Source of the DNA: Nereocystis luetkeana
Lineage: Eukaryota; Sar; Phaeophyceae; Laminariales; Laminariaceae
DNA: 64,000 nucleotides
Assembly: GCA_031213475.1 (NCBI GenBank)
Contig: JARUPZ010000013.1
Span: 6,614,739-6,678,738 of the forward strand
Direction: 5' to 3'
Shown piece by piece: positions 1-64,000 of the stretch; position 1 is the stretch's first letter, and every line of letters starts with the position of its first letter. The position numbers were made by a program, and so were the translations under genes. A model generated the notes under the pieces. It made no database searches, was not told the DNA's origin, and saw only the letters and a list, made by a program, of their open reading frames with translations.

Positions 1-170
1 CGGGGCCCGGTCTTGAGAGAAACGTCAGTTGGGCGTTCAGGTAACCATCGTGGCGGCCGTCATGCCATGGCCTAGGGTATAGCTTCTTCTCACGGGACCG
101 AGAGCGGTGTCCTCGCCAAACAACCGATCCCCAAAACACGCCAAACAATGCCACAACAACTTCGCCGTAC

Positions 171-407
171 CTCTCCCTGCTGTTGCGGTTGTTGCTGTTG
201 CTGCTGCTGCTGCTGTTGTCGCTGCTGCTGTTGAGGCTGCTGATGCGGAACGAATTTCCCCGCGAACTCTCCACACCCTCTGGCAGAGGCGTGGCGCACC
301 ATACTCGATGTCGCCACCCTTCGCTTCTTGCTCGCAACGCAGGGCGTGGGGGGCTGCATGGGGAGAGGGCTTGGCGCCATCCCCAGCATTACCCTCACCG
401 ATCCAAT
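171..407 (-). CDS. Possible polyglutamine exon, perhaps the 3' part of MYB gene 1
   Basis: A 79-codon open stretch on the minus strand bounded by a good acceptor (TTTGTCTGCAG before 407) and a donor (GAG|GTACGG after 171). Both borders are phase 0, so it could join directly to the phase-0 donor at 2070 of MYB gene 1. It holds a basic patch ASKKRRVATSS, which resembles a nuclear localisation signal, followed by a Gln-rich run broken by Pro and Arg. NLS and Gln-rich segments are common C-terminal to MYB repeats. Membership in gene 1 is inference; it could be an exon of another gene or a chance open CAG tract. If it belongs, the gene runs off the left edge. Confidence 0.35.
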
Positions 408-1010
408 CTGCAGACAAAGGAATAGCGAAAGCGATCACCAAGGGAATAGCCAAGGGAGGATGAAACATGGGCGCAACGAGGCTCAACGCTACAACTGCCA
501 CCGGCGAAACAAGCCATCGTGCCGTACGACAACCACCAAATCAGAGTCTCCGACCAGGAAACATCATCCGTACAAGAGCGCCTGCCGCCGCCGAAGCACA
601 CCCGGCAAACACCCCTATCGTGCTGTAAGAAAACCACAAAGCCAGCATCGAGACGTGCACCCCGCGCGCACACCCTTGCGCGGGTATCGTTGGACGTCCC
701 TGGTCCAACTCTCAGACAGGAGTCTTGATTGCTTGATCGAAAAACATATTCTCGTCGCCGTGTGTATCTACGTGCGGCCGGCCTATCGAGGAAACCGCTT
801 CCATCCCAGGATAGAGCTGCAGCGAGGGAGATAGATAGTTGGACACGAATCAAGCGCAGCTTTTTATGTTTTCTTGCGGTGCTACACTACACTCACAAGG
901 TCGTCCTCCTGGCTGTCGCTTTTAACCGTTACCCCCATTAACGGTAGCGGCGACGGCGTCTGTTGAGAGGCGGACGCCAACGACATTCTCGTATCAGCTC
1001 GGCCCTGTGT

Positions 1011-1235
1011 GTAGGGGTTGAGTTGGGTTGGGTTGGGGTTGAGTTGGGTAGCGTAGGGGTTGAGTTGGGTAGGGTTGGGGTAGGGTAGGGTTGGGGTTGA
1101 GTTGGGGTTGTTGGGTAGCGTAGGGGTTGAGTTGGGGTTGGGTTGGGTAGGGTAGGGTAGGGGTTGAGTTGGGGTTGGGTAGGGTTGGGGTTGGGGTTGG
1201 AGTCTGGCATCACGGGTGGGTGGGTGGGTGGGTGG
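1011..1235 (+). repeat. Telomere-like G-rich minisatellite in a putative MYB gene 1 intron
   Basis: Iterated GGGTTGAGTTGGG, GGGTAGGGTTGGGG and GTAGCGTAGGGG with irregular spacing, closed by GGGTGGGTGGGTGGGTGGGT. Not a canonical TTAGGG array. Confidence 0.88.
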
Positions 1236-1977
1236 GTAGTCCAGTGGGTTGGGTCCACCAACCACACAACACCCTCCATGCACTGCGTCGAATGAATTGG
1301 GTACGACACGTGTCCGCAACACGCTATCCAGCATCACGATAGTTGTAGTGCTGCATGGTGTTTGTGTTAGTCATATGGGGTTGATACCACCGTAAAGTGC
1401 ATTCCCGTTTCGGGCACAAACCGCTCGAATCCCAACTAGTTTTGGGAACAAACCGCTAAATACTGGTAGGTAGGTCGCTAGACCTGAATCCTAAAAGGTC
1501 AGGATTACCTAGGTTACAAGGTAGTAGCTATTAAAGGACCGCGACTGATGCTAAGCGATTACTTTTCTTTACGCGGGGAAATGCCTGCCACGGATTTTAC
1601 CGCATATCAGTGCAAGTATGCGTGTTATTTATAGTTTTATCCCCCCCCCCCCCCATGATAAACAACAAGAAATCTCGGCTGAGAGACCGAGAACCTCATC
1701 GAAACTCGTACAACTATTTGCAAAAAAAAAGGCTTAAGCGTGCGTGGCGTGGAGTGTGATGCTGTGGTCGCGCGTGGCGTGGAGTGTACTGTGTACTGTG
1801 TAAGGCCTCATCGAAAGAGCAGTTTTCGCGTGCACGAAAAAAATTAACCTGCGTTGCGCTCTGATTCTTCAAGACGCGGCAATCACGCCGCCACATGGGG
1901 CTGTTTTTGTGGGAGATTCGTTAATGTATCGAGACAGATTCAATCGCAACAAAAAAACCCGATGAAGCCTCATCATA

Positions 1978-2029
1978 TACCAGGTACCAGGTACATACGC
2001 CTGATACCAGGTATGATACCTGGTATATG
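1978..2029. repeat. Cluster of TACCAGGTA/TACCTGGTA motifs
   Basis: TACCAGGTACCAGGTA at 1978-1993, TACCAGGTA at 2005 and TACCTGGTA at 2017 within 50 bases, with neighbours sharing TA. Confidence 0.85.
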
Positions 2030-2069
2030 ATGTATCTTTTCCTCCGCAATACATACATCATACTCTCAC

Positions 2070-5256: not shown

Positions 5257-5287
<31 letters not shown>

Positions 5288-6389
5288 CGCTGATGTACGC
5301 ACGCAGGCCTACAGAGAATCGAGAGAAAGGAAAGCACAGCGCAGCACCAACGCCCGACAAAAAAGAGTCTACATGCATCATTTCAAATCACACCCCATCC
5401 CACCCACTCTACTCCACCGCACCCCCACCCACTCTACTCCACCTCACAAGGGTCCAACCGTTTTCACCTGCCGGAGCCGCTCGTCCTCCTCCGGTAGCCA
5501 TCCGCGCCGGCCACACTGCGCCTCACCCCCTCCCCTCCCCTGCTTCAACTCGGTGCCACTGTCTCCGGCCCCCCCGGTCCCGGTTCCCATCAGCGCCCCC
5601 AAGTTCCCGCCCGGCATTTTTCTCTTCTTACTTTCTCGGCAATCCACTTCTCGCTCCTGAGGTCCTCCGCCGGCGAGGCTCGCGCTGCACGCGAAGGGTG
5701 AGGATGCGGAGTTGGGGTTTCCGGTGGTGGTATTGGAGACGGTGGGCATGGCGGGGACGACGTGTGTCCCGTTGCAGCCGTTCGCGAAGGGCATGTGGCG
5801 GGCCATCTCCATGTCTCTGAAATTTTGGTCGAGTACGCTTTGCACCGCTGTCGGATTCTGCAGGAGAGAAAGAGGAGAGAAAGAGGAGAGGGAAGGGGAA
5901 GGGGGAGAGGGAGGGTAAGGGAGGGAAGGAGGAGAGGGGAGGAGAGGAGAGGAGAGGAGAGGGGAGAGGAAGGGGAGAGGAGGGGGAGGGGAGCGGGGCG
6001 GGAAGGGGAGAGGAGCGGGAAGGGGAAAAGGAAGGGGGAATGTAAAGGGGAGGGGAGGAAAGGAGGGGGAAGGAGGTCAGTTTTCACGTGACGTATACAT
6101 ATATATACTCCTGCTGTAACACATCGTCGGAAGGCGAACGGATAAATGGCGAAAACAAAGGAAAGCACACAGCAACACCAGTCACCTCGGGAATGCCGAT
6201 CGGGTTGATAGCCTCGTTAGCCTTGGACATGGCGGACGCCGCAGCCTGGGCGGCGAGGCAGCGTAGCCGGGCGTCAGTGCCCTGTCGGCAAGAATTCCCT
6301 CTTGCAATCTGGGTCAGGATTAGGGCAAGAGTTGAAACGTCAGTCATCGAGAGTGCGCGTTCTTTCGATTCGACAGTAGTGGGGGCCAT
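2070..6389 (-). CDS. R1R2R3 (three-repeat) MYB transcription factor, gene 1
   Basis: Probable nuclear sequence-specific DNA-binding regulator of the c-MYB/MYB3R type. Exons rebuilt by hand on the minus strand: 6389-6186, 5857-5448, 4793-4704, 4199-4076, 3392-3303, 2770-2690, 2159-2070. All have GT and AG borders and compatible phases and give 363 codons. R1 has WLPEEDERL, then NWRYVAQS and IQCQQRW. R2 has PGLVKGAWSLEEDE, NWSELA and PGRTAKQ, joined to QCRERWCHHLDP. R3 has NWTQEEDD, TKWAAIARE and PGRTEHAVKGRFK, so its third core Trp is Phe. The N-terminal 160 residues are unrecognised. Start chosen at the ATG at 6389, opening MAPTTVESKE; an in-frame ATG lies at 6404. The donor of exon 2 is uncertain: 5448 fits the phase, but makes R1 about three residues longer than in c-MYB, and CAG|GT at 5468 is the alternative. 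The repeats are certain by family pattern; the outer ends are inferred. Confidence 0.82.
3640..3950 (+). repeat. AT-rich tandem repeat with a palindromic core, MYB gene 1 intron
   Basis: GGTCATACTCGGATATTTAC, GTGATACTCGGATACGTTAA and GGTCATACTCGAAAATATAT open three diverged units of about 60-150 bp. Between the last two lies a self-complementary TA run (3810-3871) centred on TATTACTATATATATAGTAA. Confidence 0.82.
4347..4418 (+). repeat. AAGCC pentanucleotide microsatellite
   Basis: Fourteen or so AAGCC units with one GAGGC interruption, in a MYB gene 1 intron. Confidence 0.92.
4583..4692 (+). repeat. Dispersed repeat family C, copy in MYB gene 1 intron
   Basis: Family marked by GCGCTTGGTGCA, TCTGTCTGGTCGATGAAAAC and a GGGATGCGAGGGTCTA core. 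This copy has small internal duplications (GGGATGGGATGC). Confidence 0.75.
4860..5022 (+). repeat. Dispersed repeat family E, copy in MYB gene 1 intron
   Basis: Family order: ATC/CTA-rich steps such as CAGATCATCTAC, then GCTGCCGTTACGA, CAGGATCTGTGT, GATCCCACCCAG, then GATGACGCAGATTACAC and CTCCCACCCGGCA. Confidence 0.8.
5258..5287 (+). repeat. CA dinucleotide microsatellite
   Basis: About 14 CA units after an A-rich start. Confidence 0.9.
5862..6077 (+). repeat. Homopurine tract of about 215 bp abutting a MYB gene 1 acceptor
   Basis: Almost only A and G on the plus strand, built from GGAGAGGGG and GGAAGGGG units. On the coding strand it is a giant polypyrimidine tract ending in CTCTCCTGCAG, the acceptor of exon 2. 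Confidence 0.93.
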
Positions 6390-6483
6390 AGTAAACAGGA
6401 CCATATATTGTTCGTAAAAATAGCGAAATATATAGGTTTTTGTCTGTACCGTAGGTCCTATTTAATAAGCCCCCCCCGTAATA
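6376..6483. mobile_element. Inverted-repeat element family A, copy 1
   Basis: About 105 bp with inverted ends of the form GGGGGCCATAG / TAATAAGCCCCCCC and an internal AAATATATAGGTTTTT. Same layout as the copies at 17.1, 17.9, 18.6, 23.1, 30.5, 42.3 and 62.5 kb. Its inner end overlaps the proposed start codon of MYB gene 1. Confidence 0.85.
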
Positions 6484-7004
6484 GAGGGGGAGGGACGATA
6501 TTTAGGCAAGAGGCCGTGCCTCTTGATACACTCCCATGAACAATCGCTAACTATTCATAGTGTTTGTAGGAGGGGGATGTTTAAGCAGGAGCACATACTT
6601 CGACGCACAATTTTAGGCGGGAGGAATGGCATTGCGTTTCTGCGGGTGGTAGAAGCTAGCTCTAAAGAGTTCGAAGCACACGGGTAAGACAGAGTCAATC
6701 CTGACAACCATTTCGCCCACTCGAGAGCAAGCACCTGACCAGAGTCCACGCCACCCCGCGTACGGGTAGATCGCACCGAACGAAAGGAGAAAAATAACCA
6801 ATCCGGTTCTAGGTACAACAAGAGCAACTTGCGCTCAGCGAATTCTCAAGATTTCGAAGCGAAAACGGACGAGACAGGGCCGATCAAGACACTCGATTCA
6901 GCTACGTATCAATAGGCCAGCCATATCGACCACTCGGCAACACACAGCTTAGCTACAAGCGTCACGCGGCACTTTCGTTTCGTTGAACGAAAACACCAAC
7001 TCAT
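6484..7004. other. Intergenic region between the MYB genes
   Basis: Separates the tentative stop of MYB gene 2 from the family A element at the start of gene 1. It should hold the gene 1 promoter and the gene 2 3' end, but I see no TATA box, polyadenylation signal or repeat I can support. A 90-codon minus frame (6555-6827) has no recognisable domain. Confidence 0.5.
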
Positions 7005-10000
7005 CTACGGCACCACACAATGCAGGCACTGCTGTTCCTGCCCGCTCTCAGAAGAACAAAAAGTGAAAAACGAGGCCGAATCGAAGGGGCGTTCTCTTGT
7101 GCGCTCCCTTCTCCCCCTACCCTACCCTACCCTACCCTACTCCACCCCCTCCCTTTCCCTTCCCTTCTCGCCGAAATGCACCACACCCCAACCGCACCTT
7201 GCCTTGCTACTAACACACTTTTACTTGCCTCACACACGTGTCCTGTGACCAAGGAGTCGATTTTGCCGACGAGATACAGTAGCGCTAGAGCATCAACAAC
7301 GATATTATCTTGCCTTACCTTCCCCGGCCTCACCATACCTTGCCCGGCTATGCCTCGCCTTATCTGTTATCATACCTTACCCTGCCAGACCTCACCTTAC
7401 TATACCTTACCCTGCCTGACCTCACCTCGCGCTACCCTACCTTACGTCGTCTCCTCGCCTTATTTACAATACCTTACCCTACCTTACCTAGCCGTACCCT
7501 CCCTGACCGTACAGCTCCAAAATTCACGACATCACAACCAAACCCCACCCGTACCTTCTCCAGGCGGTGCAAGTCGCTCCCGCCCCTAATGCTTCGCTCC
7601 AATATTTTCCAGCGGATCTTGGTTGCGTTTTCCGTGCGACCGTCGAGGTGCTGCACAATAGAGGAAGCGGAGCAACCCGGCCGAAAACAAAAAAAAACGA
7701 CCGACGAAAAAAACGATCGTACGGCACAGCAGCGGCGCAACACCCAAGAGTCAGATCAGAGCCAGCGGTAGCCGACGAGGCCGAGTTGCACGACCGCAAT
7801 GCGTCGCGCTAAACATGTCGACATCTCCCAACATCTTTTCACGCAACGTTGGCATGCGTGGCATTCCGGCATCTGGGGGTAGAAACAACTACGACAAATA
7901 AATAGAGTCAGTTGGTTCAGTCACCTCTCCGCGTCGCAAGGGGCAGCCAGCCCTACGAAACGATTTGTTTCATCCATACGACTTCTTCTGGTCGTTCTCC
8001 CGAAAAAACTCCCACCTCGGATGAATGATCGATTCCCGCTTGCTTCCATCATCTACATATCTCAAGGCGGACAAGATTCGCGAGGTTCTGTCTTTCTTCC
8101 ACGCCGGAAAAATAAAAGAGCAAAAAGAAAACAAGACGGCGAGCTAAGGACGCAGCTCCTCTCAAACCACCTTTGGAAGCGCACTCCCGTTTGTGGGCAA
8201 AACCTTTTCCTGGAATAATTATGTGATGACGAGCGTTGCGGCAGGAAAAAAGGATTATGTAACCAAAACCACTGTTCCCACCACCATCGGCTGCAGGCAT
8301 CCGCCCCGCGCTATCGTATCGATCCTACGCTACATTACGCTACCCCCCCGCCACCCTCATGCTCCCCTCCGTTACCCTCCGCTACCCCGCACCGAGGAGC
8401 GCCCCCCCGTTGCTTCACCTTCCATCACAGTCGATCCTCACCCCCATCTTCACAGCCACCATCACGGACGCGTGCCACCTACCCCACCAACCTACCCAAC
8501 CCTACCCCGCGCCAATACCCTTCGCTGCCCCACCCTTCCCTCCGCCACCTACGCTACCCGGCCCCGCGCCAGTACCCTTCGCTACGCTGCCCTACCCTAC
8601 GCCGAGGCGCGTCTCCGCATGGCTTGTCTCACGCGCACCCCACCCCCACCTGTGCTATGGTGGCCCATTTGTTACCCATCTCCTGGTGCATAGACACGAT
8701 GGTTTGGTCCTCTTCCGCGGTCCACTTTCCCTTCACGATGCGCGGGTCCAGGTGATGGCACCACCGCTCCCGGCACTGCTTCGAGGTCCTGCCCGGAATG
8801 CGCGCGGCCAGCGCCCCCCAGTTCTTGTGCCCCTCGTTGAAGACGGCGGTGAGAAGCTCGTCCTCTTCCCTCGACCACTGCCCCTTGACCAGTCCCGGCC
8901 TGCACCAACAACAGCCCCCCCCCCAAAAAAAACAAAACAAAACAAACAAACAAACAACAAAAAAATAGGACAAACAAGCAAACAAAAGCACCACGCGAGT
9001 ATAAGTAACATAACATAACAACACATTCAAGGAGGCTTTTTTGTCTTTGTTAATATGTAGGGCGGCGGGTTCCTTGACCGTCGAATACGGGGAGGCTAAT
9101 GTTGTAAGAATCAGAACCCAGCATGGACCCAAAAGCCATGTATCCCCCATATGTTTACAACTCCACTTTCGGTTCTGATTGATTACTACTGTAGTACTAT
9201 TAATAATATTAAGACCAATAACAGTGCGGAGCACCCGGGAGTACGGCGAGAATAGTACCATGCCGTGCGCGAGTCGAGAGACACACATATCCCTGAAAAC
9301 TGCTGGTGCATGCAGCTCTCGCGTACACACCACACCCCACCTACCTCATTTGCAGCTCGTCGGAGATCTCCTTGCGTTGTAGCTCTCGCGCACACCACCC
9401 ACCCCCCCCCCCCCCCTACCTACCTCACTCAGCAGCTCGGTCTGCTTGCTCCCTGTGGCCGATATGCTGTACAAGAGGCCGTCACTTTTGGTTTCCCAGA
9501 CATTTTTCCCCTCTCTGTCTCAAATGGGGTTGAGCTAAGCCATGTACCAGGTATACCGTAAAAAAATTCTTTGCGCATCACTGCACAGCCATAACATAAC
9601 AGCCATAGCGATACCCACCCACAACTAGAAAGCGACAAGCACCGCACCGTCCTTATCGCCAGTCTATCAACAGCGAAGACCGTGCAGCAGCAAGCGTGTC
9701 ACCGCCATGCTGCCATGCTGCCTGCCTGCGCGACAACGCGTGTCTCGCATGTCCCTACTGCTGTGCGTTGCCCGCTGCACTTCACACACATCCTCGAGAA
9801 CAACCTCCACATCCCGCATATGCAAATATCCGCACAAAAGACGACGATATCAACAATAAGGTATTTTTAGTTGTCCTTGGTTCTTGCCGCTCATGAGGGG
9901 CAGGATGGGACGAAATCGGGGAGGGGTGATCGAAAGCGGGGGTAGGAAGCAGGAGGCGTGAGCTGCTTCCTCTTAGACGGCGACAGGCAGGTCGACAGAC

Positions 10001-11012
10001 GGGTTTGGGCCCGACGACTCACGTGAGGACCTTCTTCCACCGCTGCAGGCACTGGACGTGGTTCCTTGACTTGACATCTGCCGCGATGTCCTTCCAGTTA
10101 GTCTGGACAAACGAACAAACAAACGAAACAAAACAAATCAGAGAAGCAAAATGAAGCAAAGAACCAAATAAAACACGAACAAAAAAAAGTAAGGGGTGGG
10201 CCATATCACATACCTGGTATTAGTCTATATAGCGTGGCTCGGTTTTGGCACAAAACGAATAAACAAACGAACCGAACGAACGAAGAAACAGGGTAGAACA
10301 AACAAACCAAACAAAACCAAACCAAACGCGGTGAGGATTTCTATAGCGCGGCTCCGCTTTCCTACAAACAAACAAACAAATAAGCAAACAAAACACACAA
10401 GCGAATAACCACACAAAACACACATTAATACATTAATAACAAGGAAAATTGCGGTGAGTTTATCACGGCGCGGGTCCTTTTTGATCGCGGTTACTCCAGT
10501 AAGTTAAGACGCCCATACTCTCCAAACAAAACATATAGATAGATGCCGACTCGACTGCGCTGCCGGGCACGCGCGCCAGACGCCCACCCCGCCCGATACC
10601 CAAGCCTTGCGGAGAGGGAGACCCCAGCCGCGTACGACTACCGGCGTCCCAGCACAAAATAAGAGACTCTCGTGGCTTGCTGGAATTAATTGCCTGACCA
10701 ACGGCTGTAGCGGAAAAACAACCCTGTTACGTACCTGGTACAATATATATACCAGGGTATTATTATATATACGTACGTGGTACCAGGTACCTGGTACTTA
10801 ATATGAGGTGCAGAAGCAATGTTCGATGAAACTCAACGCAAAGAAAAAACGAACAAACAAACCAACAAAGAAACACACCGCAAGGCCAAATGGAAAACGA
10901 AAAGGAAAGCTCAAGCTACGCGTACACACACCCCTTACTTACCCCATGGTGCCTGTCCACCGAAGCGCGCAAGCGCTCGTCCTCCTCCGGCGACCACCTT
11001 CGAGGGTGCACG
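7005..11012 (-). CDS. R1R2R3 MYB transcription factor, gene 2 (5' end not found)
   Basis: Second three-repeat MYB protein, lying upstream of gene 1 on the same strand. Exons: 11012-10943, 10102-10023, 8899-8650, 7650-7555, and a tentative last exon 7037-7005 that adds ten residues and a stop. R1 has RRWSPEEDERLRASVDRHHG joined to TNWKDIAADV and VQCLQRWKKVL, with c-MYB spacing. R2 has PGLVKGQWSREEDELL, KNWGALAARIPGRTSKQ and CRERWCHHLDP. R3 has KGKWTAEEDQTIV, NKWATIAQ, HLDGRTENATKIRWKI, with all three core Trp kept. Unlike gene 1, R2 and the first half of R3 share one 250-bp exon. The first listed exon begins in phase (one base, then GTG), so at least one exon lies above 11012; I could not identify it. 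DNA binding and nuclear location follow from the family. Confidence 0.78.
7099..7505 (+). repeat. CCCTA/CCTTAC degenerate minisatellite in a MYB gene 2 intron
   Basis: CTACCCTACCCTACCCTAC, then CTTACCCTGCCAGACCTCAC and CTTACCCTGCCTGACCTCAC. On the coding strand these are G-rich repeats downstream of the 7555 donor. Confidence 0.82.
8318..8615 (+). repeat. CGCTACCC-type degenerate minisatellite in a MYB gene 2 intron
   Basis: CGCTACATTACGCTACCCCC, CCGCTACCCCGCACC and GCCAATACCCTTCGCTGCCC / GCCAGTACCCTTCGCTACGC recur. G-rich on the coding strand, downstream of the 8650 donor. Confidence 0.78.
9106..9192 (+). mobile_element. Dispersed repeat family D, copy 1
   Basis: ATCAGAACCCAGCATGGACC to CTTTCGGTTCTGATTGATT around CATGTATCCCCCATATG. 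The inverted ends ATCAGAACC/GGTTCTGAT suggest a short DNA element. Lies in an intron of MYB gene 2. Confidence 0.8.
10104..10435 (+). repeat. AAAC/AACG-rich array upstream of a MYB gene 2 acceptor
   Basis: Runs of ACAAACAAACGAAACAAAAC type. On the coding strand these are TTTG/TTCG arrays leading into the acceptor at 10103. Two internal copies of CTATAGCGCGGCTCCGCTTT / CTATATAGCGTGGCTCGG mark a wider duplication. Confidence 0.78.
10734..10799. repeat. Cluster of TACCAGGTA/TACCTGGTA motifs
   Basis: TACCTGGTA, then TATACCAGGGTA, then TACCAGGTACCTGGTA inside an AT-rich segment with many TA dinucleotides. Confidence 0.85.
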
Positions 11013-12058: not shown

Positions 12059-12744
12059 CCTCTCCCTCACCCCCCCCCCCCCGACGCTCCGAGCTGTCAA
12101 CCGCGCACTGTCGCGCGGTAGCGGTGGCGGGCGAGGTGCGGTGCCACCTGTAGCGGGGGAAAAAAATCCGCCGAACAAAACAAATTACCCGCCGTTGTGC
12201 ATACGTAGTATCATATAGATATATCATACCAGGTATACATATATAACTCCATGAAAGTCGACGAGCAGTGGGAATACCGAACAAGCCCTATGCGCGTCAA
12301 GGCGAAGGAAAACAACGCGGGGGGTGGGGTGGGGTGGGGTGGGGGGGGGGGCGGGGGAGGAGTGCCTCGTGACCACGCACGGCCTGTCCAGAAGGCCGCC
12401 GAGGGTAAAACACCAGCACCGAGTTGAAAGCAAAAGCGACAAAAAACGAACAAACAGGTCACGTGTAAATCTATCTATAAATATATATCGTCTCCCAAGA
12501 AAAAGAAACACGTCACGTAGCTCAAGCTATGAATTGATGAGTATTCACCCACCCACATACATACACACACGTATACGCCAACTACTATACGCCCGTCCGT
12601 GTGTCGTCTGTCGCAGGTGGTACACTCTTCCACGTCTCCACGTTGTAATGTGCCGCGGCGGACTAACCTCCTTTGGGCAGGGAGGAACACCCGACGTTGA
12701 TGGTCGAGTGGGCTGTTTTGTTTTAGATGCATTCGTACCACCGC

Positions 12745-15881: not shown

Positions 15882-16379
15882 TTAGGGGTTGTCTTTTGCT
15901 GTTTTTATTTGTCTCCTATTTCGTGAACCCCTAACTTCGACCAATTTCGACCACTGCAGCACCTCTTTCGTCGAGGTGTAGAGTACCCCTCCGTTGAGAA
16001 CCTGCGGGAGATCAATCTCGAGAGAAGCACAAGCTGCTGTGATGAACCTCTTTTGAAGCTTTGAAGTCACCGTCGCTCTCCGGCAAGCACGACCCAGCCG
16101 AAGCTCTGATAAACGCAGGGTGTTGAAAGAGCCATTTTGTTTTTTTTCCGATAAAACATCTAGAGATGAGAGTGACCGGAAGCACGGGGACCGGGAGACG
16201 CTCAGTTGCGCGGCCTTAAGCATGGACCGAAAGAGGGAAGCTATCATATCGACTATTGATAGTAGGTACCCCGATTTAAGAGCGCCCCGTGACAAGCCCA
16301 AACAGACGTTCCTAACTACCAGGTACGCAACACTCTCATCTCTATTAATAGTGGGATATATAGCTTTTGGTGCAGACAA
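15882..16379 (-). other. 165-codon open frame, unidentified
   Basis: One of the longer low-repeat frames of the gene-poor region, on the same strand as the P-loop-like frame 280 bases further on. It contains KLQKRFITAACASLEIDLPQ and VLYTSTKEVLQW, which look protein-like, but I recognise no domain. It may belong with 15271-15603 to one decayed gene; that is conjecture. Confidence 0.2.
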
Positions 16380-17071: not shown

Positions 17072-17186
17072 TATTACGGGGGACCAAAGTTAACAGGACC
17101 AAATATTCTTAGTGAAAATGGTTAAATATATAGGTTTTTATGTATGGCATAGGTCCTACCAGTATTAACTATGCCCCCCCGTAATA
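17072..17186. mobile_element. Inverted-repeat element family A, copy 2
   Basis: Begins TATTACGGGGGACCAAAG and ends CCCCCCGTAATA. Carries TACCAGTA at 17157-17164 where other copies have a single TA. Confidence 0.9.
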
Positions 17187-17872
17187 GTAGTGCTGGTACT
17201 ATTGGCTAGCAACGGTCCTTCGTTTCCACTCTAAAACCTACATACTCCCCATTCCGGAGTAGTGGCGGTTGCCGCAGTAGCACTAGCGCCGGTTTTCCAG
17301 GCTCGCACATACAGGCCCTACATATAGAGGGATCACTATTAGGACTATACTACAGTAATACGCTTCACAAGCTGCCGTCGACGCCACCGTGGGGCGGTGC
17401 CCCTAAAATATGAATATAATAATAGCAGGTTCTCTTTTATGTCGTTATGGTTATGGTCTGGAGGGCACACCGAGGCGGGTCGGTACCTCGGGTCAGAACG
17501 GAACGAAGTCTGGGCGACCTCTGGTAAACCTTCAACTTGTAAATAATGAGGCGGTACTATCTTAGGGGAAGGGGACACCTGGTGTCCACATGAGCAGCAT
17601 GAATAGTTTTCCTGTACATGCACAAAACCAGGTACACCTCAAGACACGGCATGCCGTGTATGGTAAGATATTTCTGAAAAGTGACTTGACGTATTCGGGT
17701 GAGGTACGTGAGGTGTGCGTGTGTAAGTAAATGCACAGCTCCAAAAGGGTGAGGAGGAGCCTGAGAAAAGTTGAGTCGGCCCCTATGATACCACCGTCAC
17801 AGCATGCGTCAACACGTCACTCGGTTCTTGCCACGTACCAGGTACCAGGTATGTAACAATAGTATAGTATAG

Positions 17873-17981: not shown

Positions 17982-18645
17982 GTACTCACACCTATTTAAT
18001 ACCAAGCTCAACGACAGGAAGAAGAACTACTAACTGTAGTGTATTAATAGTGCGTTGCGACGAAACACACAGACATGCACACGCAGAAACACAGCACGCG
18101 GCACACACACACGCAACATGAGCGGGGTTCAACGAAGTAATCAAGGCGTCATCACAGCAGCAGCATTTCATACATATGGCATCAACGAGTAGGTGCCATC
18201 GCGTTACCCCATGCCACCACTTTTCTCTACAGCGACGTAACTAGAACGTCACAACCCCCCCCCAAATATACCACTTTGTCCCTCAAAATAAGGACCTAGT
18301 CTCTAATAATACTATAACAAAACGGTCCTTCCAAGAAGGGACAGGGTGGTATGCCATATACGCTATATATGCTATATATGTTATACCAGGTATGGTGTAT
18401 CATATAACGGTATAGATAAGCACAACCTAATGCTGCGTCACGGCACCTTTCGCTCTGACGGAGTTCGCGTCATCGATCGCAGAATCACCCCGCACCGAAA
18501 AAAGAAACACCGAAATGACGGAGCTTGAACAAGAAAAAAAAAAAAAAACGTACTCAAAACAGCTTTCTCTTGCCGCTGTTGCTTACCAGGTTTTCTTTAC
18601 AATCTAGCGCGGGCATTTTTCTTGCGCTGCTATCTCTCGTACCAC

Positions 18646-18763
18646 TATTACGGGGGATCATACCTGGTAGTTAATAGAACCTGTGGTATACATAAAACCT
18701 GGTATATATTTAACCATTTCTACTAACAATATTTGGTCCTATTAACTATGGTCCCCCGTAATA
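18646..18763. mobile_element. Inverted-repeat element family A, copy 4, with micro-insertion
   Basis: Aligns with copy 3 across its full length except for an extra CCTGGTA after CATA, creating TACCTGGTA at 18661-18669, and a 3-base GGT gain further in. Confidence 0.92.
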
Positions 18764-19660: not shown

Positions 19661-22467
19661 ACGACCATTCCCCGTGTGCGGAGTTACGGTTCTCCCCGCA
19701 CAAAAATGAACTAACCCGATCGCCAGCCCTGGTGACCGCCATAAAAAAAAAAAAAAACGGCACCTTGGTTGTCTATCTAGCTCACGTAGTGAGAGGCGAG
19801 CTTTACAGCGTCGTCGCCAACCGTCGCCAACCCAACCAATATATATATATATATATTGTATATCAGGTACCAGGTATACAATACAGGGGAGGGGGGGTGT
19901 TTATATTTGTTGCTTGCCTTCGTCATTTGGCCAAGTGACCCAAACGACCCACGCATCCCTTTAGGGGGGAAGGGGGGGCAACAATGGCGCAGCCTGTGTT
20001 CTGTCAGAAGGCGGTCGGGCGAACCGCCCCCCCTGCACCCCAATAAAGTACCAGGTGGTTGTTTCGCTGTTCATTCAATGCATGATATTGTATCATTATA
20101 GACAGCAGCAGTAGTACATTTACTGGCTGCATTTCTACTACGAACAGGTACCATTAATACATACATTGTTCTTGAGGCCAACTTGTTCTGTGGCAAAAAA
20201 AAAGGAACTTGACGGGGAGAATTTGTCAACCGATATATTTTACGGTAACATTTTTCAACCGATCGCAGAGTGGTCGGTAATCGAAAATTAGCAGCCGATG
20301 CTCTCTGAATAGGTAAACCGGTAAATCATACCAGGTATACTATAGAGGGTTTGTTCTGGGCGGCGCCGAAAATTAGTGATGACCCCTTCGTAGGTGACGT
20401 GGTTGAAGCGACCGACCAACGGCCCGATCGACCGACCGGGATCCAACGCCACGATGACTCACGACTGACGACAGCAGTTACATACCGGGTATATCAACTA
20501 TTCTGCTGCGCGTTGGGTTTGTGTGTTGTGGCTCACCCTTTCCCGTCCTCGTCACTCCTGGGATCCTCTTTCTCTAGTGGTCTCGCGGTCATTTCCCGGC
20601 CGCCATTGCTGCCACTGCTGCTGCCATTGCTGCTGGTGATCGAAAGAGAGCTCCTTCGATGCGGTTTCACCTGCTGGTGTTCCACGTCACGATACGGTAC
20701 GGCAGGGAGCGATGCACGGAGGCGGTGCGGTGCCGGGGGTGGTTCCTACGAGGTCATAAAGCGAGCTGCTATATACAAGTATTCTACAGCAGTGATTGCC
20801 GCGAAAAGTTTTTTTTTTTTTAGCTGGATGACGCCGGAGATGTGGGCCCGGAGAACCGCCCTGTCTCGACCGAAAACCTCCGTTCGTTTCTTTTTTTGAG
20901 AATATGCCTTCTACTTCCAGCAGCACTGCTGCACACTGGTGCACACTGGTGCACACTGGTGTTAGTTGGCATCAGTTACACGTATTGTCCAGCGCGAGCT
21001 CCTATTAATAGCGACAACTATTAATATCATACGTACCCTATCGTAATTTGCTTCTACGTACATATATACATTATACCATGTAGCGCTAGAACAGGCGAAC
21101 GGAACTGCTGTACAAACACTACAGCAGTACTACCACTGGTAAGTATGTAGACACCTGCGTACGGACAGGCACCAAGCTACAGGCCAACCCGAGCCCACAT
21201 CAGAGAGGGGGGAGGGACGCGTACTCAGTTGTTGCTTGCCTTATCAATAGTCATTTCGCATCCTCTCCGAGACGGAGCACCGTTCCAACTCGTAATAGAG
21301 ACACCTCGAACAGATGGGCGCTCAATACTATGTTTCCGTCTATAACATGGAAATCTTTTGCTAGTCTTATTTTTCCCCCTCCTGTTTGGTCCCCTGTGAC
21401 CACCATCTATCTCCTAGGATAACGATCGTTTTCTCGAGGCTACCTAGTGTATCAAACCCCGACATGTCACATTCGTCTATTTCCCTCATCTCCCCTTCTA
21501 TCACATCCCGTTCTTCCTGGAATATTTTACATTCTCCAGTGAGGGAGGGGGGGAGGGGGTGTAACACACGGCCGGAACGACACTGCTGCACGCCGTACTA
21601 CAGCAGTACATACTATTAATACCAGGTACTTGTTACTACGAATATTAGCCTTGGGGCTTGAGAAACGTCGAAAATAAACTACGACGGCGGCACCGGCAAC
21701 GACAATCAGCCCGGGCTAAGGCAGTAGCAAAACGCAGTACCAGGTATCTCATACGTATGGGGTAGGAGACGTGCCCGAACAGCAGTCGCGCAGCATGGAG
21801 ATACTCGCACTATTATACGAGTACGACTACTGCCGCTGTACGGTCAAACTTGACGCTTCTGCGACCGCATGATTAATAACATTTTTTTTTTGGTCGCGTA
21901 ACACGGTCCAAGGGGTAACTACTGCTTTATTAACAATACTAATAATAACACTTATGCTTACGCTCCTTCCACGAGGGGTATTTGGAACGTACTCACTGGG
22001 TACTGCGGTACACTACAGAGAAGTGTTGATAGTAATCTGTAGACAATATGGAACGCGCACGGGGTCTCCCACCGCCCGATATGCATAAAAAACAGCAGCA
22101 GCAGTTGCGTCGACTATCTCGCAGAACATAGACATCAACAACAACGCTGTTGATGTTTTAAAAAGTATGATATTGCACGCCCTCCAGGTCTTCGTGCCCC
22201 ATTCATTGCCTGTCTGTCACTCTACAACTCCTGTCTCTCTAGAAATAGAACGAAAAATCTTTACAGACACTATTGATAGGTGCACTGGACTGGTGGATGT
22301 CGCTGGAAAGAAATACAACAACAGCAGCAGCGGCAATATCACATTATACATGGTCATCAATATCAGTATTATACCGCGAGAGTACAAACAAGTCAACTCC
22401 GCGTCCGAAAGTAATCACTTTCACGAATAGATACTCCTTCCTTCCTTCCTTCCTCCCCCCCCCTCCG

Positions 22468-22560: not shown

Positions 22561-23050
22561 CCCTTCCCTTCGCTTCCCTTCCCTTCCCTTCCGAGGCCAG
22601 GTGCAAGCCCTGATGCTCGCGCAGCAGTGAAGACGCCCGTGGGATACCTGTAATACCATCGCTCACCGCTACGATCAAGAATGTCGCAAACCAATCGCAC
22701 CAACTCGTACAGTCAGGACCGGCCTTCTATATAATACAAAAACCGGGATACCGGTAGAGAGGTTATATTTCCTACCAGGTATTTGAACAGGATATTTTGA
22801 ATCCCACACCACTGCTGTAGAAACTTTCGACCCTTTTAGTGCTGCCCTCCTGAGCAGAAACATACATTCTGCTCTAATTTCAAGCATTCAGTGTATTCCC
22901 AAAACGGGAGTGCATTTCTTAAGGGGATAATAAAATTTCTCCCGAATTTCTTGTTTCCCTGGAGTTCTCACACTGAGTTTCTGGCGGAGCTCTGTATCAT
23001 GAGAGGGCCGGTAGTGTTGTGGGGGTCATAATTATTTAACTAATACCTGG

Positions 23051-23166
23051 TAGTAACGGGGGGCCATAATATATAGGGCCCGCGGTACACACAAAAACCT
23101 ATATATTTCCCTATTTTTACTAACATTTTTCGGTCCTATTTATTTACTATAGCCCCCCCGCAATAA
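23051..23166. mobile_element. Inverted-repeat element family A, copy 5
   Basis: Degenerate copy from AACGGGGGGCCATAAT to TAGCCCCCCCGCAATA. A TACCTGGTA sits at its left border (23044-23052), and a family B palindrome starts about ten bases beyond its right border. Confidence 0.8.
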
Positions 23167-23260: not shown

Positions 23261-24247
23261 GAGAGAGGGCCGTTTTCTTTTTTAGCCGGTACCGGCTACC
23301 ACAATGACCGGGAATATAGTCCCCGTTTGTTGGTATTACAATTCTTCATGTAAGAATCAATAGTACGGGTCATTATATTTTCGACCAGTGGCGATACCCC
23401 GCGGAAATTCGGAAATTTTCCATTTAGCCGCCAAAAATCAAAACAACCAATAGAACGACGACGAACGGCGACATGACGCGAGATGACGTCATGCCACATT
23501 CGAAGGGAATCGTTCCAGTAAAAGTGCTACTGCTGCTCCCGGGTTTCCGTCGTTTCTCCGGCATCTGCACGTTATACATACTTGCTTCGTACAGACTAGA
23601 CTTTCGCCCAGATTCCGCCGTCTGCTGATGGTGCTCGCTCACAGTCAGCCCGGGAAAAAAGAAAAATACGATCAAACTATTTTTCTCCTTCTACATTTCA
23701 TGTTTGGGGCCGGTCAATCTTTTAACTCCAGTTATCCCTCTTAATAGTTGCCGGTGATCTCCCATCAGTAGCCAGGCTACCAGGGGTGTTCGGCTGCTGT
23801 CTTGGGTCTTCATAATCTAGCCCATGGTCACTTGGGATTGATAACAGGTTTATCGGATGGTCTGTCTGAGGTGCGGTAGGATTTTACGAGCCGATCGCCG
23901 AGCGCCCATACAAGCAAGCGCTGGTGGGTGGTGCAGCAACACCAAACCTACATGCATGCCTGGTATACGAAGAAGCTACCAGGTATATGGAGCTGTAGTT
24001 ATACCGTGCTCGCCCCAGTAAAGAAACAAACGGTTGTCTGGTGTACATACTTCTACATTATAGTACTCGTACGTCCGTCAAGCTTATCGTGATCTCGGAA
24101 GCCAGATCATACTCTAGTATAAAATATGTATGTACCGCTACCGAGCGAGTCAGCCGCGTCAAAAAAAGCTAATTTGACACCTTTAGGGGACAGGGGGCAT
24201 CTTGTATTATATACCTGGTACAGCAGTAGGTATCGTACCTGGTATGT

Positions 24248-25082: not shown

Positions 25083-28000
25083 CACCACCAAAAACAACCA
25101 CAACAACAACAACAACAGGGAAAAAGACCAACAGCACGCTGTGGTGAGATTGCGTCGTCTCCCCCTCGTATGGCTACTCGATACTTGTACTGCAGAGAAA
25201 CAACAGCAGCAGCACTAATATTAATACCTGGTAGAAGCTGCTGTAAGAGAAAAGCAGCGCACGTTAGAATGTCTTTTGTAAACTACTGCTGTATTTATTA
25301 CCAGGTATTAATCATACCATCATTCATTGTGTCCATCAGAACAAGGCTTTCAAATACTATTAATAATACCTGGTAGGGAATTGGACAAAGAATCTGCGAA
25401 ATACACGTACGAGGTGGAGGCTGTGGGGGGGGTGGGCTACTATACGAGTATACTACTACAAGCAGTGCCGTAGCAGCAGCAAGCCCACGGAAGTGCACTG
25501 CTGGTAGGTTTGCATCACGTGTTGGGGATTGCTCAACAGGAACAGCTACCAACGAGTACCATCAGGGTCCGCCACGGACTACTGAACGGGAGTCGGCAAG
25601 TACGTGCGTATCAAGGCGAGGCGAGGCGATTGCTCTCGGCCCGAACGGCCCAAGTGAACAATGCAATTCTCTGCTGAGAGCTACCAGGTACAGCAGTAAA
25701 AAGAGTCGTGCATAAGGATAACAAACATACAGCAATCGGCTGCCACCGTCCGGAGACGTTGGCAACCGTGCGAAGTTTTCTTGCGTTGGAAGGATCACCA
25801 CTCCGTATGCGCATCCATGCGATATTTCTTGTGCGTCTACTACGCCTGGCCGAGTCATGTCTCCTCGCTTGTATACAGCCGCACCCTGCATGATGAGCCA
25901 GGCCTTGGTTGGCGGAATAAAAACCTCGCCAATCCGTACTCTATCTATTAATAGGATGAAAAAAAACTCCAAGGACTCAAGCCAACGGTTACGTTCTCGA
26001 GGCAAGGAATCTCCAGAAAGGAGCAGAGGAGAGGTGCAAAGACCTTGCACTACCCTGCCAGCACCAGCTCACCTTGAAAGCTCGTTGGTCCAGCTGCGCG
26101 CTCTGCCACTGCTGTGCTTTTCTAGTTGACCACAGGATTTGGCGGAAGGCAATAAATAATGACTGAGCGACAAGACCTGTGGACTGCGGTGTGATACAGA
26201 TTAGAGCAAGTGGAGACTGACTGAACTGCGTGCTCTCCTCTTCGTTCTGTTTCCTACGCTCATTCGAGATGCAAGACGAAAGCCAGTCAGGCGCTGAATA
26301 TTAGGCGAACCAAAACGCCACAAATATTCATGGAGCTCCTCTGTTTTTTTTAGAACCAATCCTCCGAGGCCTGTTTTTTAGAACCAATTTTGGAGGCCTA
26401 TCGCATGATACGATACGAAGCAGCACCAGACAGCAGAGCAGAGCAGAAAGCGCCTTCAAGCAAGACGGAGACAAAGCGCCAACATACCATGAACGAGGAT
26501 TTGGCTCGCGAGAGGGCTGCGAGTTTTGTGGATGTCGAGGTACGATCGGGCTTCGATTATACAGATTCATCAGCTTGCAGCTGTGACAGAGTAATCGTAT
26601 TTAATACCTGGTAGTACACAGCAGCAGTCAGCACTGGTCAGTTTGTCCCCATTGCCCCCTCGTAATACATACGAATGTCTGCCGAGCGTTGTATCTGAAG
26701 GTTTGAGGCAATCCCAACAGCAGGCTACGTATAATTCGATGTCAATGTCATCATCGCCATTTATTGGAGGGAGGAGTCAACGGAGCACAGCTCTGGCGAG
26801 AGGAGTCACCCTCCTGGCAAAGATTCACCGTATTGCAACGCCATGGGCGTATAAAGCATAATATACCTGGTAGTTTGGTACTGCTGTACCGATTCAGCGC
26901 GAGACGAGGCTCTATCGCGCTGACCCTGTTGCTTCCGCAATCCAGCGGAAACATGGAGCTGCCATTATGGCATGGTTACATATTATACCCATGTGCGTAT
27001 TGTAATTGCCCGCGCCCCTATTGGACTACCAGTAGACCCCTACAACAACAGTAGAGTTATAAATAGGCGTTTAATACTATTTATCCGTATCCCCGTTTAG
27101 TATATCTTACAGACAGACCTGCTTCAGAGAGCCGGCCACCGATCATGTCAAAAACCTGGCATACCTGGTATATTATACGTGCTTGTTACTTCGACGTCGA
27201 CGCTACACGAGCCGTAGCTATTCCAGCTTCGTACTGCTGTGTGAGTAGTCGCTCGCCGTGTGTTTTCCGCAGCTACCCGTAACTTACGGTAAGCAGGGTC
27301 GCGCTGAGGTTGACGAAGAGGGAGCAAAAAGCACGTGAGCGGTTGTCGGTGCGTGGTGCGTTGCCCTCTTCTTGCGTCATTGTCGTACAGCAGTGGCTCT
27401 CTTTGCAGTCCCATAAGCACTCACATGCTCATGAACCCATTACTGTCTTCGGTGTAATTTTGAAACATAGAGACGGCATGAACTGCCAGATGCGCCGGTT
27501 CAGCTTTCTTGTTCGGCGGAATGTCTGTTTAGTGAGTAACTTTGCCTCGTTGTTTGTTCTGCGTTGGTACTACTGTTTGGTTTTGTACGATAAGTTGTGG
27601 TTATAGACTGCTGTATGTAGAGCTGTACATACAGCAGTATCACACTGCTGTGTAGGTCGAGCCTACTCGTTGATACGGGCTTACAGACGTGAATTTGTTC
27701 TACTGCTGTGTGTACCGATGTCCTCTCGCCACAGTCTGTAACTAGTCTGTAACTGATACTGACACGGGTTTACACGAATGTTTGTACATCCGGGGACATC
27801 TGGCACAAGAGTATATATAGCACATTCTACAACAACTAGAGTATGTCCCTCGTTGTCCCATGCCCTTGCTACTGATTTGCCCACCTGCTGCAGCGAAACA
27901 TTTGGCGCAATATCTCCAAATTGATTGCTTCTCTTTCGTTTCGTTTTAGTATACACTACTGCTTGGTACGCGTACATACTTCGATACATACTCGTGGAGA

Positions 28001-28137
28001 CTCCCTTAGGCTGAACAGCGATAACAACAGCGGCAAGGAGTTGGTACATACATCATTGCAGGCTGCCTCTATTTGCAACACCACCTTGCAAGTACCAGGT
28101 ACCTGGTGCAACACCGTTTGGCCCATTTCTATCTTGC

Positions 28138-28200: not shown

Positions 28201-29284
28201 TTGGGGGGCTTGAGGCAATCAGGGGCGGTCGCGTGTTTCGGTGGCGTTTTTCCAACAGAGAACGGCCCGACCGAAGCGCCAGCCTCGACCAATCACACAG
28301 TGGTGTTGCACGTTTTTTTGTTTTTTTGGGAGGCGGTATTGCAATTAGAACCTCTCATCATTGTAGGGAGTTCCTCACGTGTTGTGTGCATATGCGGACA
28401 CCGAGGGTTTGCTATGATTAGGTACTGTAGTTATGCAGACAGGAGGGTGTCGGCTTGAAACTGGAAACTTGGGGAGCACGCACGAGTGAGAACCAGGTAT
28501 CATTGGTGGGTTTCTCTTGGTTTGGGTCGCTATCGCTACTGTTTACCAGGTATATCGAATCATACGTAGTCGCTTATTTGCTCGTGCCAGCTATTCTACC
28601 TCGTGACTCGTGGTTCAATGTTTGGTTCGATTGCGACGGGTAGGTCAAGAGCCCAGAGTCCAGGATCAAGAACGATACATCATCTCACGTACGTACTGAT
28701 GCGGGCTATCGTACCCCTTCTATAAAAGTATGAGCTACGTATCGCTAGGATTTCGCGCAGCCGGATATTTTGAACTGTCGTCAACTTGTGTGGGTTGTGT
28801 TCGGGCGTAAGACGGACGGTTCAGGCAATTTCGACGTAATACGTCACGTACTGGTAGTCCTTTCCGTGACACATGATGTAGGCAGACAGGTGAGGAATAC
28901 CTGTGATCCGAGTATGTGCACATGGCAGCAGTGCTACTGTAATTGTAACGGCGCTGTGCTCGAACTGTACGGCAGCTTCGGAAGTGTTCCGCATCTGCAC
29001 ATATGACGAGGGCTATTAGCAGGTCTTCTTGTCAGGGGTACATCTCGGTACATGTCTTGCGCTGGCTAGACTGGCCAGTATACCGGTGGAGAGAGCGCTG
29101 CTGCTCACACAGATCAATAGCACGGCAGTACAGCAGCAACAACAGTATATGCATTCGTACGCGGGACTATCAACCTCATTTGGCATGTATGATGATACTG
29201 GATATGATACCCAGCACACGCATCAGACGCACCCGGTGCCAGATATCGCTGTTGACATATTTCGAAGTATTCACACATCGGACG

Positions 29285-35261: not shown

Positions 35262-58658
<23,397 letters not shown>

Positions 58659-61260: not shown

Positions 61261-62310
61261 AGTGGGTGCGGATTGCGCCCATCCTTTGGGGGAACGTCGC
61301 CTGGATAACACTGTCCGGCAAAAAAATAGCGTTGTCTTCACGGGGTTGGTGTCGATCAGCGTTGATTTTTGTCGATGGTTCAACGTTTTCAAAGGGCGTA
61401 TAGGCTACTGCAGAGCTTCCATATGCCTCGAAAGACGATTCGTGACCGCAGTTTTGTGATTGGTGATCGGTCAATTTTTGAGGTTGGAGTTTTTTATTGG
61501 TGGAAAATCCTTGGTCGACGTGTGTATCGTCATCTGGGATCGTGACGTCACTTCTCGTAAAACAAATACATGCGTACATTATACGGGAAATTGGGCGTGG
61601 ATGATGACGTTGGTGAATCTAGCGTCTTGATACCAGGTATGCGTCCCCGTGGCTCAAACATCAGGCACTCGTTGCTTTTATGTACCGCACACGTGCGTGC
61701 CGCGGAGCAAAATACGCGAGGGGTATGGTTTGCCATCATAAGTTTTCCAAGTTGGTTGTTCGTTCTATATACGAGTCAACGAGGGGATGGGTAGTGTTCA
61801 AGATAACCACAAGCAGGTCGCAGAATAAGGTTGCGATCATCTCGTTTCCGTTGGCTGCACTGGGAAATCAACCATGGCTCATTTGGTGACGTATTGTAGT
61901 TAGTGCTGATTTACCGCAGAGACGTAGAAACACGGGTGTTCATTCGTTTTGGTTCCTGCTTCTCGTGCCTAGCAGCGCGAGCATAGCTGAGGCACACGAG
62001 CGAATGGCACGACGCTGCGCTGCTGCTGGTAGGCCTAGAACCTATAGGACTATTGTGGTTTTTGTCGGGTATTACCCGCACGGCCCACTTTTTTTTCCGG
62101 ATAGCCGGTACGCATAACACGCACGGAGTAGCTGTTATATTCGCCCTTTAATTCATTTTACTCTAGTTAAAAGTGGTGGTGCGTTTCCTATCATGCATAA
62201 GTACACGCTTTCGTCGGACAAGCATGGCTTGAGCCAAGTACCAGATACAATGCATGGTATGTTTTCCCCGAAGGGGGTAACAAAATGAGTTCTGGCGTAA
62301 GAGATCCTAC

Positions 62311-62417: not shown

Positions 62418-62453
62418 GGGGTTTACACACCTACTGTAGTTACTATTATGGGG

Positions 62454-62553
62454 GAGCATAGTTAATAGGACCAAATATTGTTCGTAAAAATGGTGAAATA
62501 TATAGGTTTTTATGTGTACCATAGGTCCTATTGACTATGGCCCCCCGTAATAT
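62454..62553. mobile_element. Inverted-repeat element family A, copy 8
   Basis: Begins TATTATGGGGGAGCATAG and ends CCCCCCGTAATA. Lies about 40 bases from a family B palindrome. Confidence 0.9.
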
Positions 62554-62812
62554 TAATACCTACCGTGTTTAACAGTCTGCTCGTCGTGAGCATGAGGTAT
62601 CCTGCGCACGTTTTGCGGCATATCCAAACGCCTTTTTATATTTTCGACCAGACCGGTAACGGATTATTATACACACATACACGCGACTGCACATACTGTA
62701 CAAGTGCGAGTAGTACTCTCTTATTTCGGATCATCCTCGAATTTTATGCAAGCAAGGGTGCGTGCCACTCTAAATTTCAGTACAAGAAAGGCCACACTCT
62801 TCCGAAGAAACG

Positions 62813-62907
62813 AGCCCTTTTAGAACCGCAGTCCCGTTTTGGGGACAAACCAGTCTAATTTCAAGTAGTTTGTCCCCAAAACGGGACTGCGGTTCTAAAG
62901 GGATTAA
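62813..62907. mobile_element. Palindromic element family B, copy 7
   Basis: CCCTTTTAGAACCGCAGTCC to CGGTTCTAAAGGGATTAA; the arms pair with almost no mismatch, which suggests recent spread. Confidence 0.92.
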
Positions 62908-63266
62908 CTCCCAAGTTCTTGAGTGCTGTCGCGTACCACGCTGGGCGTAAATGTAAGGACCGCTTGGTCTTCCTATTGACCACTAAAGGGCCTTACATTT
63001 TCAGTCAGAGTGGTATTAATATTGCACACGCATACATGCATACCTGGCACATGCATGCATACTTCGTTTCAGAGAATATACCGTACCTGGTATACTATAA
63101 GCGAGATGTCACACCCCCTCGGGCGATTTTGAAAGGTATGGTCGGTTGGTTTCCCGATGACGGGGAGGGCGTGCTGAATACGACGAACGATGCATGCGTC
63201 TATACATGCAACCTTCTCGACGAAATCTCTTATCCAAAGCCACCATTTTCGTTGTGTGTGCCTCCC

Positions 63267-63363
63267 TTAACCCCTTTAGTACCGCAGTCCCGATTTGGGG
63301 ACAAACCATTCTAATTCCAAGTGATTTGTCCCCAAAACGGGACTGGGGTTCTAAAAGGGTTAA
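63267..63363. mobile_element. Palindromic element family B, copy 8
   Basis: TTAACCCCTTTAGTACCG to GGGGTTCTAAAAGGGTTAA, loop TTCTAATTCCAAG. Closest to copy 2 in its loop and in the TACCG variant. Confidence 0.92.
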
Positions 63364-64000
63364 GGCATCTTTTTTGGAGGAAACCGGGTCGTCTGAAAAT
63401 CGTCCCAGGGGAGTGTGTTATCTCAAGTGTTACCAGGATTACGGCGGTATACGGTAGTACATACAGCACGTGCGGTTGGACATACGATCACGGGTGACCT
63501 GTTGTCTGTCGTCCCTGCTGACGGAACACAGGCCGGGGTGTGTGAATACCGGTGAAAGCAGAAATGACACCTGTTGGTGTGTTTCTTCTAGTTTCTTGAC
63601 TCTTGGCATTGTCGCTAAAGGGGCGAGAGCCATGAAGCTCATCCCACGGTATACCGTTTTTCGGCTCAATATTTGTTTTGACCGGTTGAGTTCCTCAAGC
63701 GAGCAAGTATTAATATTGGTATGCCGGCGACAGCAGTAGCAAGAGATATCGGAGAGTGTATTGGGTTTCAGGGCTATCGCATACAGCGCATACAGCGCAT
63801 ACAAAAGTTGTTCGGATTGCGCGAACAAACTTCTTCGAAGTCATGTTTCGTGTGACGTACCGAGCTCCTTATGTGAGGCAGGGGCCCAGAAAACAATAAT
63901 CCGCAACCTCTACCGTTCCGTGCCACTGGTCGAACTTCTATGAAACTCGACGAGCAGGGGAAATCGTTAAAGCTTGTGTCGCCTTCAGTACTCCCCACCA

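Follow-up and report, generated by a model that had tools for sequence, protein, structure and literature searches.

Candidate excision scars of a TA-inserting DNA element at high density in the genome of the brown alga Nereocystis luetkeana

The 9-mer TACCAGGTA and its reverse complement TACCTGGTA recur at high density in a 64,000-nucleotide stretch of the Nereocystis luetkeana genome (hereafter the window; ~50% G+C; contig JARUPZ010000013.1, C13:6614739-6678738, in assembly GCA_031213475.1, with 465,085,209 bases in 1,987 contigs). Wherever the motif could be compared with a related sequence in simple form, it was an insertion of 7 bp, made up of five bases and one more TA, at a TA that was already there. 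We consider it probable, at about 0.75, that the motif goes back to a cut-and-paste DNA element, which inserted at TA and, on excision, left its last five bases behind as a scar. This partly supports the excision-footprint interpretation put forward in an initial annotation of the window.

The abundance of the motif was measured against shuffled and reversed controls. The window contained 44 exact copies (25 on the plus and 19 on the minus strand), against a mean of 0.60 and a maximum of 3 in 100 dinucleotide shuffles, an excess larger than the initial annotation had claimed. TACCAGGTA ranked first among window 9-mers by the enrichment score used, and CCAGG/CCTGG was the most enriched TA-N5-TA filler (44 vs 0.64). 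Genome-wide, both reverse-complement forms were present as anticipated, in 182,395 copies (91,240 and 91,155), and the reversed-pattern control gave 1,744 (861 and 883). This ~105-fold excess bears on the frequency test that had been set beforehand as a possible refutation, and the scar interpretation came through it. The density was 392 per Mb genome-wide and 688 per Mb in the window; 24 arbitrary 10-kb stretches held 75 copies, and the paired form TACCAGGTA-N4-TACCAGGTA occurred 144 times, against 0 for the control. Chance or base composition is ruled out as the cause by the window and genome counts. The 5, 4 and 1 matches obtained in scans of viral contigs are taken as chance.

Spanning repeats were examined in a wider sample made up of the window and 20 further stretches (264 kb), which held 102 exact copies, 44 in the window and 58 in the stretches. 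L001-L005 carry two copies each, the ones used to find them, and L018 was chosen for carrying the motif. A spanning repeat was present for 21 of the 102 copies, yielding five clean 7-bp empty sites, eight shared sites and eight ambiguous ones. The clean cases were window positions 18661 and 52256, L034:1943, L036:6551 and L036:6569; the eight shared cases are four sites of the L020/L036 duplication viewed from both sides. Insertion at TA with TA duplication, as in Tc1/mariner elements, was found in these five of the 21 spanned copies, two of the five lying in one duplication. The clean comparisons duplicated only TA, and piggyBac and PIF-Harbinger, with TTAA or 3-bp target duplications, were rejected as candidates.

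Several informative copies lie in a palindromic family of miniature inverted-repeat transposable elements (MITEs), family A, which has arms of 29-32 nt (TATTACGGGGGACCATAGTTAATAGGACC) and a TATATA core that holds the motif in several copies. Private insertions of 7 bp were observed at 18661 and 52256, and one of 6 bp (CCAGTA) at 17157; the alignable relatives in the family show plain TA at these places. All three had been noted in the initial annotation, together with a shorter form at 42369, which fits an insertion by eye only, against the element's own other arm, and gave ambiguous tool alignments. The site of the 18661 copy reads TACGAGGTA in the L018 copy. As had been expected, motif positions were not common to all copies, and the empty sites carried TA.

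The L020/L036 duplicates are 93.57% identical over 6,205 aligned columns. Only two 7-bp indels separate them, and both are the motif; they are private to L036, 18 bp apart, and L020 has an exact TA at each. Many of the other indels resemble tandem duplications by eye. Because motif copies are both shared and private in this pair, they arose before and after the duplication, and copies common to the diverged duplicates are therefore inherited. The list of short indels between repeats contained 16 entries of 7 bp, five labelled as CCAGG at TA; two more (18661, and L034:1943 again) are also the motif, their gap being placed one base away. Three of the repeats in the stretches were microsatellites, the source of most indels of other lengths.

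Shorter fillers were also observed. The 8-mer TACCAGTA by itself was weakly enriched (7 vs 2.17 in the window; 22 vs 15.6 in the wider sample). Five of its 22 copies had a spanning match, giving one clean 6-bp empty site (17157), two shared sites and two that were not simple, among them L036:6185, which faces TACAGTA and not TA. The filler CCGG was seen as a 6-bp insertion in L018, and TACCGGTA occurred 13 times in the wider sample against 3.9 expected.

If the motif is an excision scar, the element would insert at TA, duplicating it, reside between the two TAs for a time, and leave TA-CCAGG-TA on excision. A filler of almost constant length between two TAs is the expected product of such an element. 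On one strand the enzyme would cut five bases in from the element's end, producing 3' overhangs 5'-CCAGG-3' on both flanks. These overhangs could anneal with one central A-A mismatch, repair of which would give CCAGG or CCTGG, and loss of the mismatched base would give CCGG, as in the L018 insertion and in TACCGGTA. Excision would have been unusually complete, because scars are abundant and the parent was not recognised.

Target choice was compared with all TAs, using non-nested sites outside the window and omitting the four L036 sites common to L020. The flanks were RTAY (R, purine; Y, pyrimidine) at 36 of 60 sites, vs 0.317 of all TAs, and YTAR at 3 of 60, vs 0.137. RTAY is a palindromic TA target. 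Genome-wide, YTACCAGGTAY accounted for 35,165 of the 182,395 copies (19%; control, 460), YTAY being 0.324 of sampled TAs. Pairs at most 50 bp apart numbered 22, against 3.6 when RTAY sites of these stretches were drawn at random (one tandem pair enters twice, in L020 and L036), and adjacent copies with a common TA numbered 18 against 1.55 (both strands counted; L036 omitted). This close clustering suggests very short hops or strong hot spots. A TA exactly 7 bp from the target TA was found at 27 of 68 flanks of 34 non-nested window sites (background ~0.09 per flank). Outside, a first sample gave 9 such TAs over 43 sites (0.21 per site against a background of 0.14). An enlarged sample, which includes three stretches adjoining the window, gave 20 of 120 flanks vs 0.064, with offsets 2, 4 and 14 raised as much as 7. 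A special 7-bp rule was dropped, the signal being at most mild outside the window and other offsets equally raised, and the spacing is kept as a window feature only.

Decayed copies were also in excess. One-mismatch forms numbered 110 against 54.0 expected in the wider sample, where exact copies numbered 102 against 2.4, and ~40 of the 56 excess forms were transitions. Assuming a single age for all scars, the excess would correspond roughly to 0.55 changes in each 9-mer, or close to 6% per site. Extrapolating the one-mismatch excess (56 per 102 exact) from 264 kb gives ~280,000 CCAGG scars genome-wide.

A number of results weigh against excision scars. The copies L034:1943 and L021:6350 stand at the identical family A TA and may be one inherited scar. 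Pairs 101-200 bp apart were fewer than expected (2 vs 6.2). The inner C and G beside the central base showed no transition excess, a result not predicted by plain neutral decay. All 14 of 14 flank-asymmetric window sites keep A on the strand reading ...TAY, a bias not predicted by random mismatch repair; outside the window the link between orientation and flank was 13 vs 8, without a clear sign of the rule, and it is kept as a window feature only. The remnant has five bases, more than the 2-4 bp on record. Moreover, 129 TACCWGG (W, A or T) tips without a following TA, in 358 kb (<0.1% of the genome), had no common end, with three exceptions: a three-copy repeat whose outer flank is also alike (L015, L026, L038), the L020/L036 duplicate, and one 30-bp palindrome. 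The palindrome (L032:9715-9744), a single case, has TACCTGG...CCTGGTA ends and arms that differ only at the third tip base. The initial annotation had called for a search for elements bounded by TACCAGG and CCTGGTA with a DDE transposase; none was recognised in the 358 kb, and the Tc1-type domain DDE_3 (PF13358) gave 0 matches genome-wide (30 candidates scored, introns ignored; other transposase families not searched). No pair of TACCAGG and CCTGGTA within the window matched well at its inner ends (best 10/12, 11/20), in agreement with the earlier remark that it holds no intact parent.

The missing parent would be explained if a transposase or repair enzyme added CCAGGTA directly at a TA break, without a full element having been present at any time. 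The unit could come, for instance, from a fragment of an element's end, from an integration that was aborted, or from a short template. Both the 358 kb of tips and the genome search for DDE_3 are in keeping with such micro-insertion, and so are the tandem copies and the pair of copies private to L036, which lie 18 bp from each other. We nevertheless regard it as unlikely, since the mechanism would be an unknown one, and staggered excision would yield what is seen: a duplicated TA, a filler that is nearly palindromic, and 6-bp forms as a minority (CCAG at 17157; CCGG in L018).

Absent parents would also be accounted for by programmed elimination, in which elements resembling the internal eliminated sequences of ciliates are removed in development and the assembly derives from post-excision tissue. 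In ciliates, precise excision leaves a single TA and concerns somatic DNA only; Paramecium restores a single TA. Here a 5-bp filler and a second TA remain, and the copies common to diverged duplicates, together with the excess of mutated forms, mean that many of them, at the least, passed through the germ line, so that this explanation is very improbable.

A regulatory or structural binding site under selection would fit an exact, clustered 9-mer on both strands, with two inner positions lacking a transition excess. As the origin of the motif it is contradicted by the private 7-bp insertions in mobile-element copies and in the duplication, and one-mismatch forms at about twice expectation at other positions, with ~182,000 copies, make it highly implausible; later co-option of some copies as binding sites is possible. 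That the counts reflect an abundant longer repeat is scarcely credible, for while some copies travel with duplicated DNA (L020/L036) and with MITE copies, the flanks of the 44 window copies are alike little beyond the 9-mer, and no longer word scores higher.

Excision scars were compared with known systems, as described in the portions of the cited papers available. Tc1/mariner excision leaves 2-4 bp (PMC7913693), and irregular footprints of other sizes are also on record (PMC3770610). The footprints of Sleeping Beauty are TACAGTA/TACTGTA, 7-mers that occur at >300,000 mouse sites anyway (PMC4378557), and motif abundance alone therefore proves nothing. The Nereocystis motif resembles these footprints in having TA on both sides, an odd-length, near-palindromic filler and both reverse-complement forms. 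It differs in its 5-bp filler, in its ~390 copies per Mb, and in that no terminal inverted repeat (TIR) or transposase was identified in the searches made; Tc1/mariner-type TIRs beginning CCAGG beside TA were not recognised in the 358 kb (<0.1% of the genome). The Tc1/mariner label of the initial annotation does not follow from a main remnant of 5 bp and was not adopted, no end or enzyme having been seen. The pogo-type element Passer also leaves short remnants, but of 0-4 bp, which are said there to resemble those of Tc1/mariner (PMC9976928). Stowaway MITE footprints in Triticeae, recognised from empty and filled sites, are likewise inherited and TA-flanked, with 1-4 bp TIR fragments (PMC1925063); unlike the present motif, they are a handful in one intron, and the elements are still present in some sequences. 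Ectocarpus carries almost 12,000 Mariner-Tc1 copies, plus MITEs (PMC12477816), possible relatives given that the host is a brown alga, and the word footprint is absent from the main text of that paper. In the openly available literature, neither 9-mer was found as a whole word, nor was a report of such scars. TA-flanked excision scars are already known; a main 5-bp remnant at ~182,000 places would be new among them.

The footprint papers, in the parts available, deal with single loci or assays, and here one genome presents ~182,000 exact candidate scars. Such debris could reveal which targets a mobile element chose, how the ends were joined and when the element was active, and it raises the question of why there are so many scars and so few recognisable element copies. 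Each scar, in lengthening the sequence by 7 bp, would create one more TA and with it one more target, and would contribute to small-scale variation; scar presence or absence would give dense strain markers. A bolder proposal, which we put below even odds, is that the genome holds several hundred thousand inherited micro-scars of an undescribed element. It would insert at TA, cut five bases inward from its ends, be excised almost completely and move by only tens of bases at a time, so that trails of scars result; TTAA and CAGCAG, at the least, would be the fillers of sister families.

Two other words are candidates for such fillers. TATTAATA occurred 18 times in the window against 1.3 expected and 28 times in 200 kb against 3.3, dispersed; as a 4-nt remnant, TTAA would be perfectly cohesive, and two 6-bp TTAATA insertions at TA were seen among the repeat comparisons. 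TACAGCAGTA occurred 11 times in the window against 0.44, dispersed and mostly within 16-28 kb, as was the 8-mer ACAGCAGT with Y/R flanks, at 32 window places with flanks not always TA. Tandem and TA-sharing copies of TACAGCAGTA/ACAGCAGT suggest a second scar family, and both TATTAATA and TACAGCAGTA may have been left by sister families. With L036 omitted, a TA was common to the motif and TATTAATA in 4 cases vs 0.73 and to the motif and TACAGCAGTA in 3 vs 0.40, both small numbers; one control filler gave 1 vs 0.30.

The copies in the window are collected in Table 1. Among nine example coordinates in the initial annotation, six lie within 2 bases of a copy (1978; 10734, in fact 10732; 24212; 25682; 26606, in fact 26605; 52256). 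The other three failed: 17856 is not a copy (the real ones are at 17836 and 17843), 32576 is TACCAGGTG, and 55315 has no similar sequence. The TACCAGG lacking a following TA at 18698..18704 may be an imprecise scar.

Table 1. Copies of the motif, candidate sister fillers and MITE families in the window
Feature	Position	Strand	Remark
Four-copy cluster	1978..2025	1978 +, 1985 +, 2005 +, 2017 -	exact match; 1978 and 1985 in tandem with common TA
Copy of TACCAGGTA	9545..9553	+	exact match
Motif copy	10211..10219	-	exact match
Three-copy cluster	10732..10796	10732 -, 10781 +, 10788 -	10781 and 10788 have common TA
Motif copy	12227..12235	+	exact match
Motif copy	16317..16325	+	exact match; inside possible MITE 16265-16417
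6-bp variant TACCAGTA	17157..17164	+	clean insertion at TA, MITE family A copy
Two tandem copies	17836..17851 (17836, 17843)	+	exact match; common TA
Motif copy	18384..18392	+	exact match
Motif copy	18661..18669	-	clean 7-bp insertion at TA, family A element
TACCAGG without following TA	18698..18704	-	core of the family A element that holds the 18661 copy
Motif copy	19868..19876	+	exact match
Motif copy	20329..20337	+	exact match
Motif copy	21620..21628	+	TA common with TATTAATA at 21614
Motif copy	21738..21746	+	exact match
Motif copy	22773..22781	+	exact match
Motif copy	23044..23052	-	exact match
Motif copy	23977..23985	+	exact match
Motif copy	24212..24220	-	TA common with TACAGCAGTA at 24219
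Motif copy	24236..24244	-	exact match
Motif copy	25225..25233	-	TA common with TATTAATA at 25219
Motif copy	25299..25307	+	exact match
Motif copy	25367..25375	-	exact match
Motif copy	25682..25690	+	TA common with TACAGCAGTA at 25689
Motif copy	26605..26613	-	exact match
Motif copy	26864..26872	-	exact match
Motif copy	27162..27170	-	exact match
Motif copy	28093..28101	+	exact match
Motif copy	28544..28552	+	exact match
Motif copy	39473..39481	-	in 75%-identical local duplication; alignment without simple gap
6-bp variant TACCAGTA	42369..42376	+	family A fragment; insertion by eye only
Motif copy	43915..43923	-	exact match
Motif copy	44407..44415	-	exact match
Motif copy	46592..46600	+	exact match
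Motif copy	52256..52264	+	clean 7-bp insertion at TA, core of family A element
Motif copy	53326..53334	+	exact match
Motif copy	54305..54313	-	between acyl-CoA oxidase exon stretches (probable intron)
Motif copy	54959..54967	-	in the same acyl-CoA oxidase gene as the 54305 copy, again between exon stretches (probable intron)
Motif copy	57865..57873	+	exact match
Motif copy	61631..61639	+	exact match
Motif copy	63084..63092	-	exact match
TATTAATA	2493, 5207, 9198, 16343, 21003, 21614, 25219 and others; also L026, L035		nests with itself and with CCAGG copies
TACAGCAGTA	16679, 16687, 18818, 21120, 21599, 24219, 25284, 25689, 26879, 27630, 44391		
MITE family A	6381-6499, 17069-17189, 17870-17984, 18641-18764, 30523-30635, 62441-62555		~115 bp, palindromic
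Second palindromic MITE family	13935-14029, 14997-15091, 29841-29936, 62814-62906, 63268-63362		TTAACCC...GGGTTAA-like ends

The ends of the second MITE family are reminiscent of piggyBac ends. The sequence at 16265-16417 is a possible single MITE with 21-nt arms (GGTACCCCGATTTAAGAGCGC, 95%) and a CCAGG copy inside at 16317. Pfam was run on 38 open reading frame (ORF) stretches, of 153 stop-to-stop ORFs of at least 100 amino acids in the window, and no transposase was found in them; the matches above the curated thresholds were to Myb and acyl-CoA oxidase domains alone, with a few weak ones below. Rfam gave no match in the window at the gathering threshold. The acyl-CoA oxidase gene lies on the plus strand at 53954-55179, with three exon stretches recognised by Pfam, one of them under the cut-off. 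A (CTA)n/(CTG)n microsatellite of ~700 bp, open in several frames, occupies 44899-45605.

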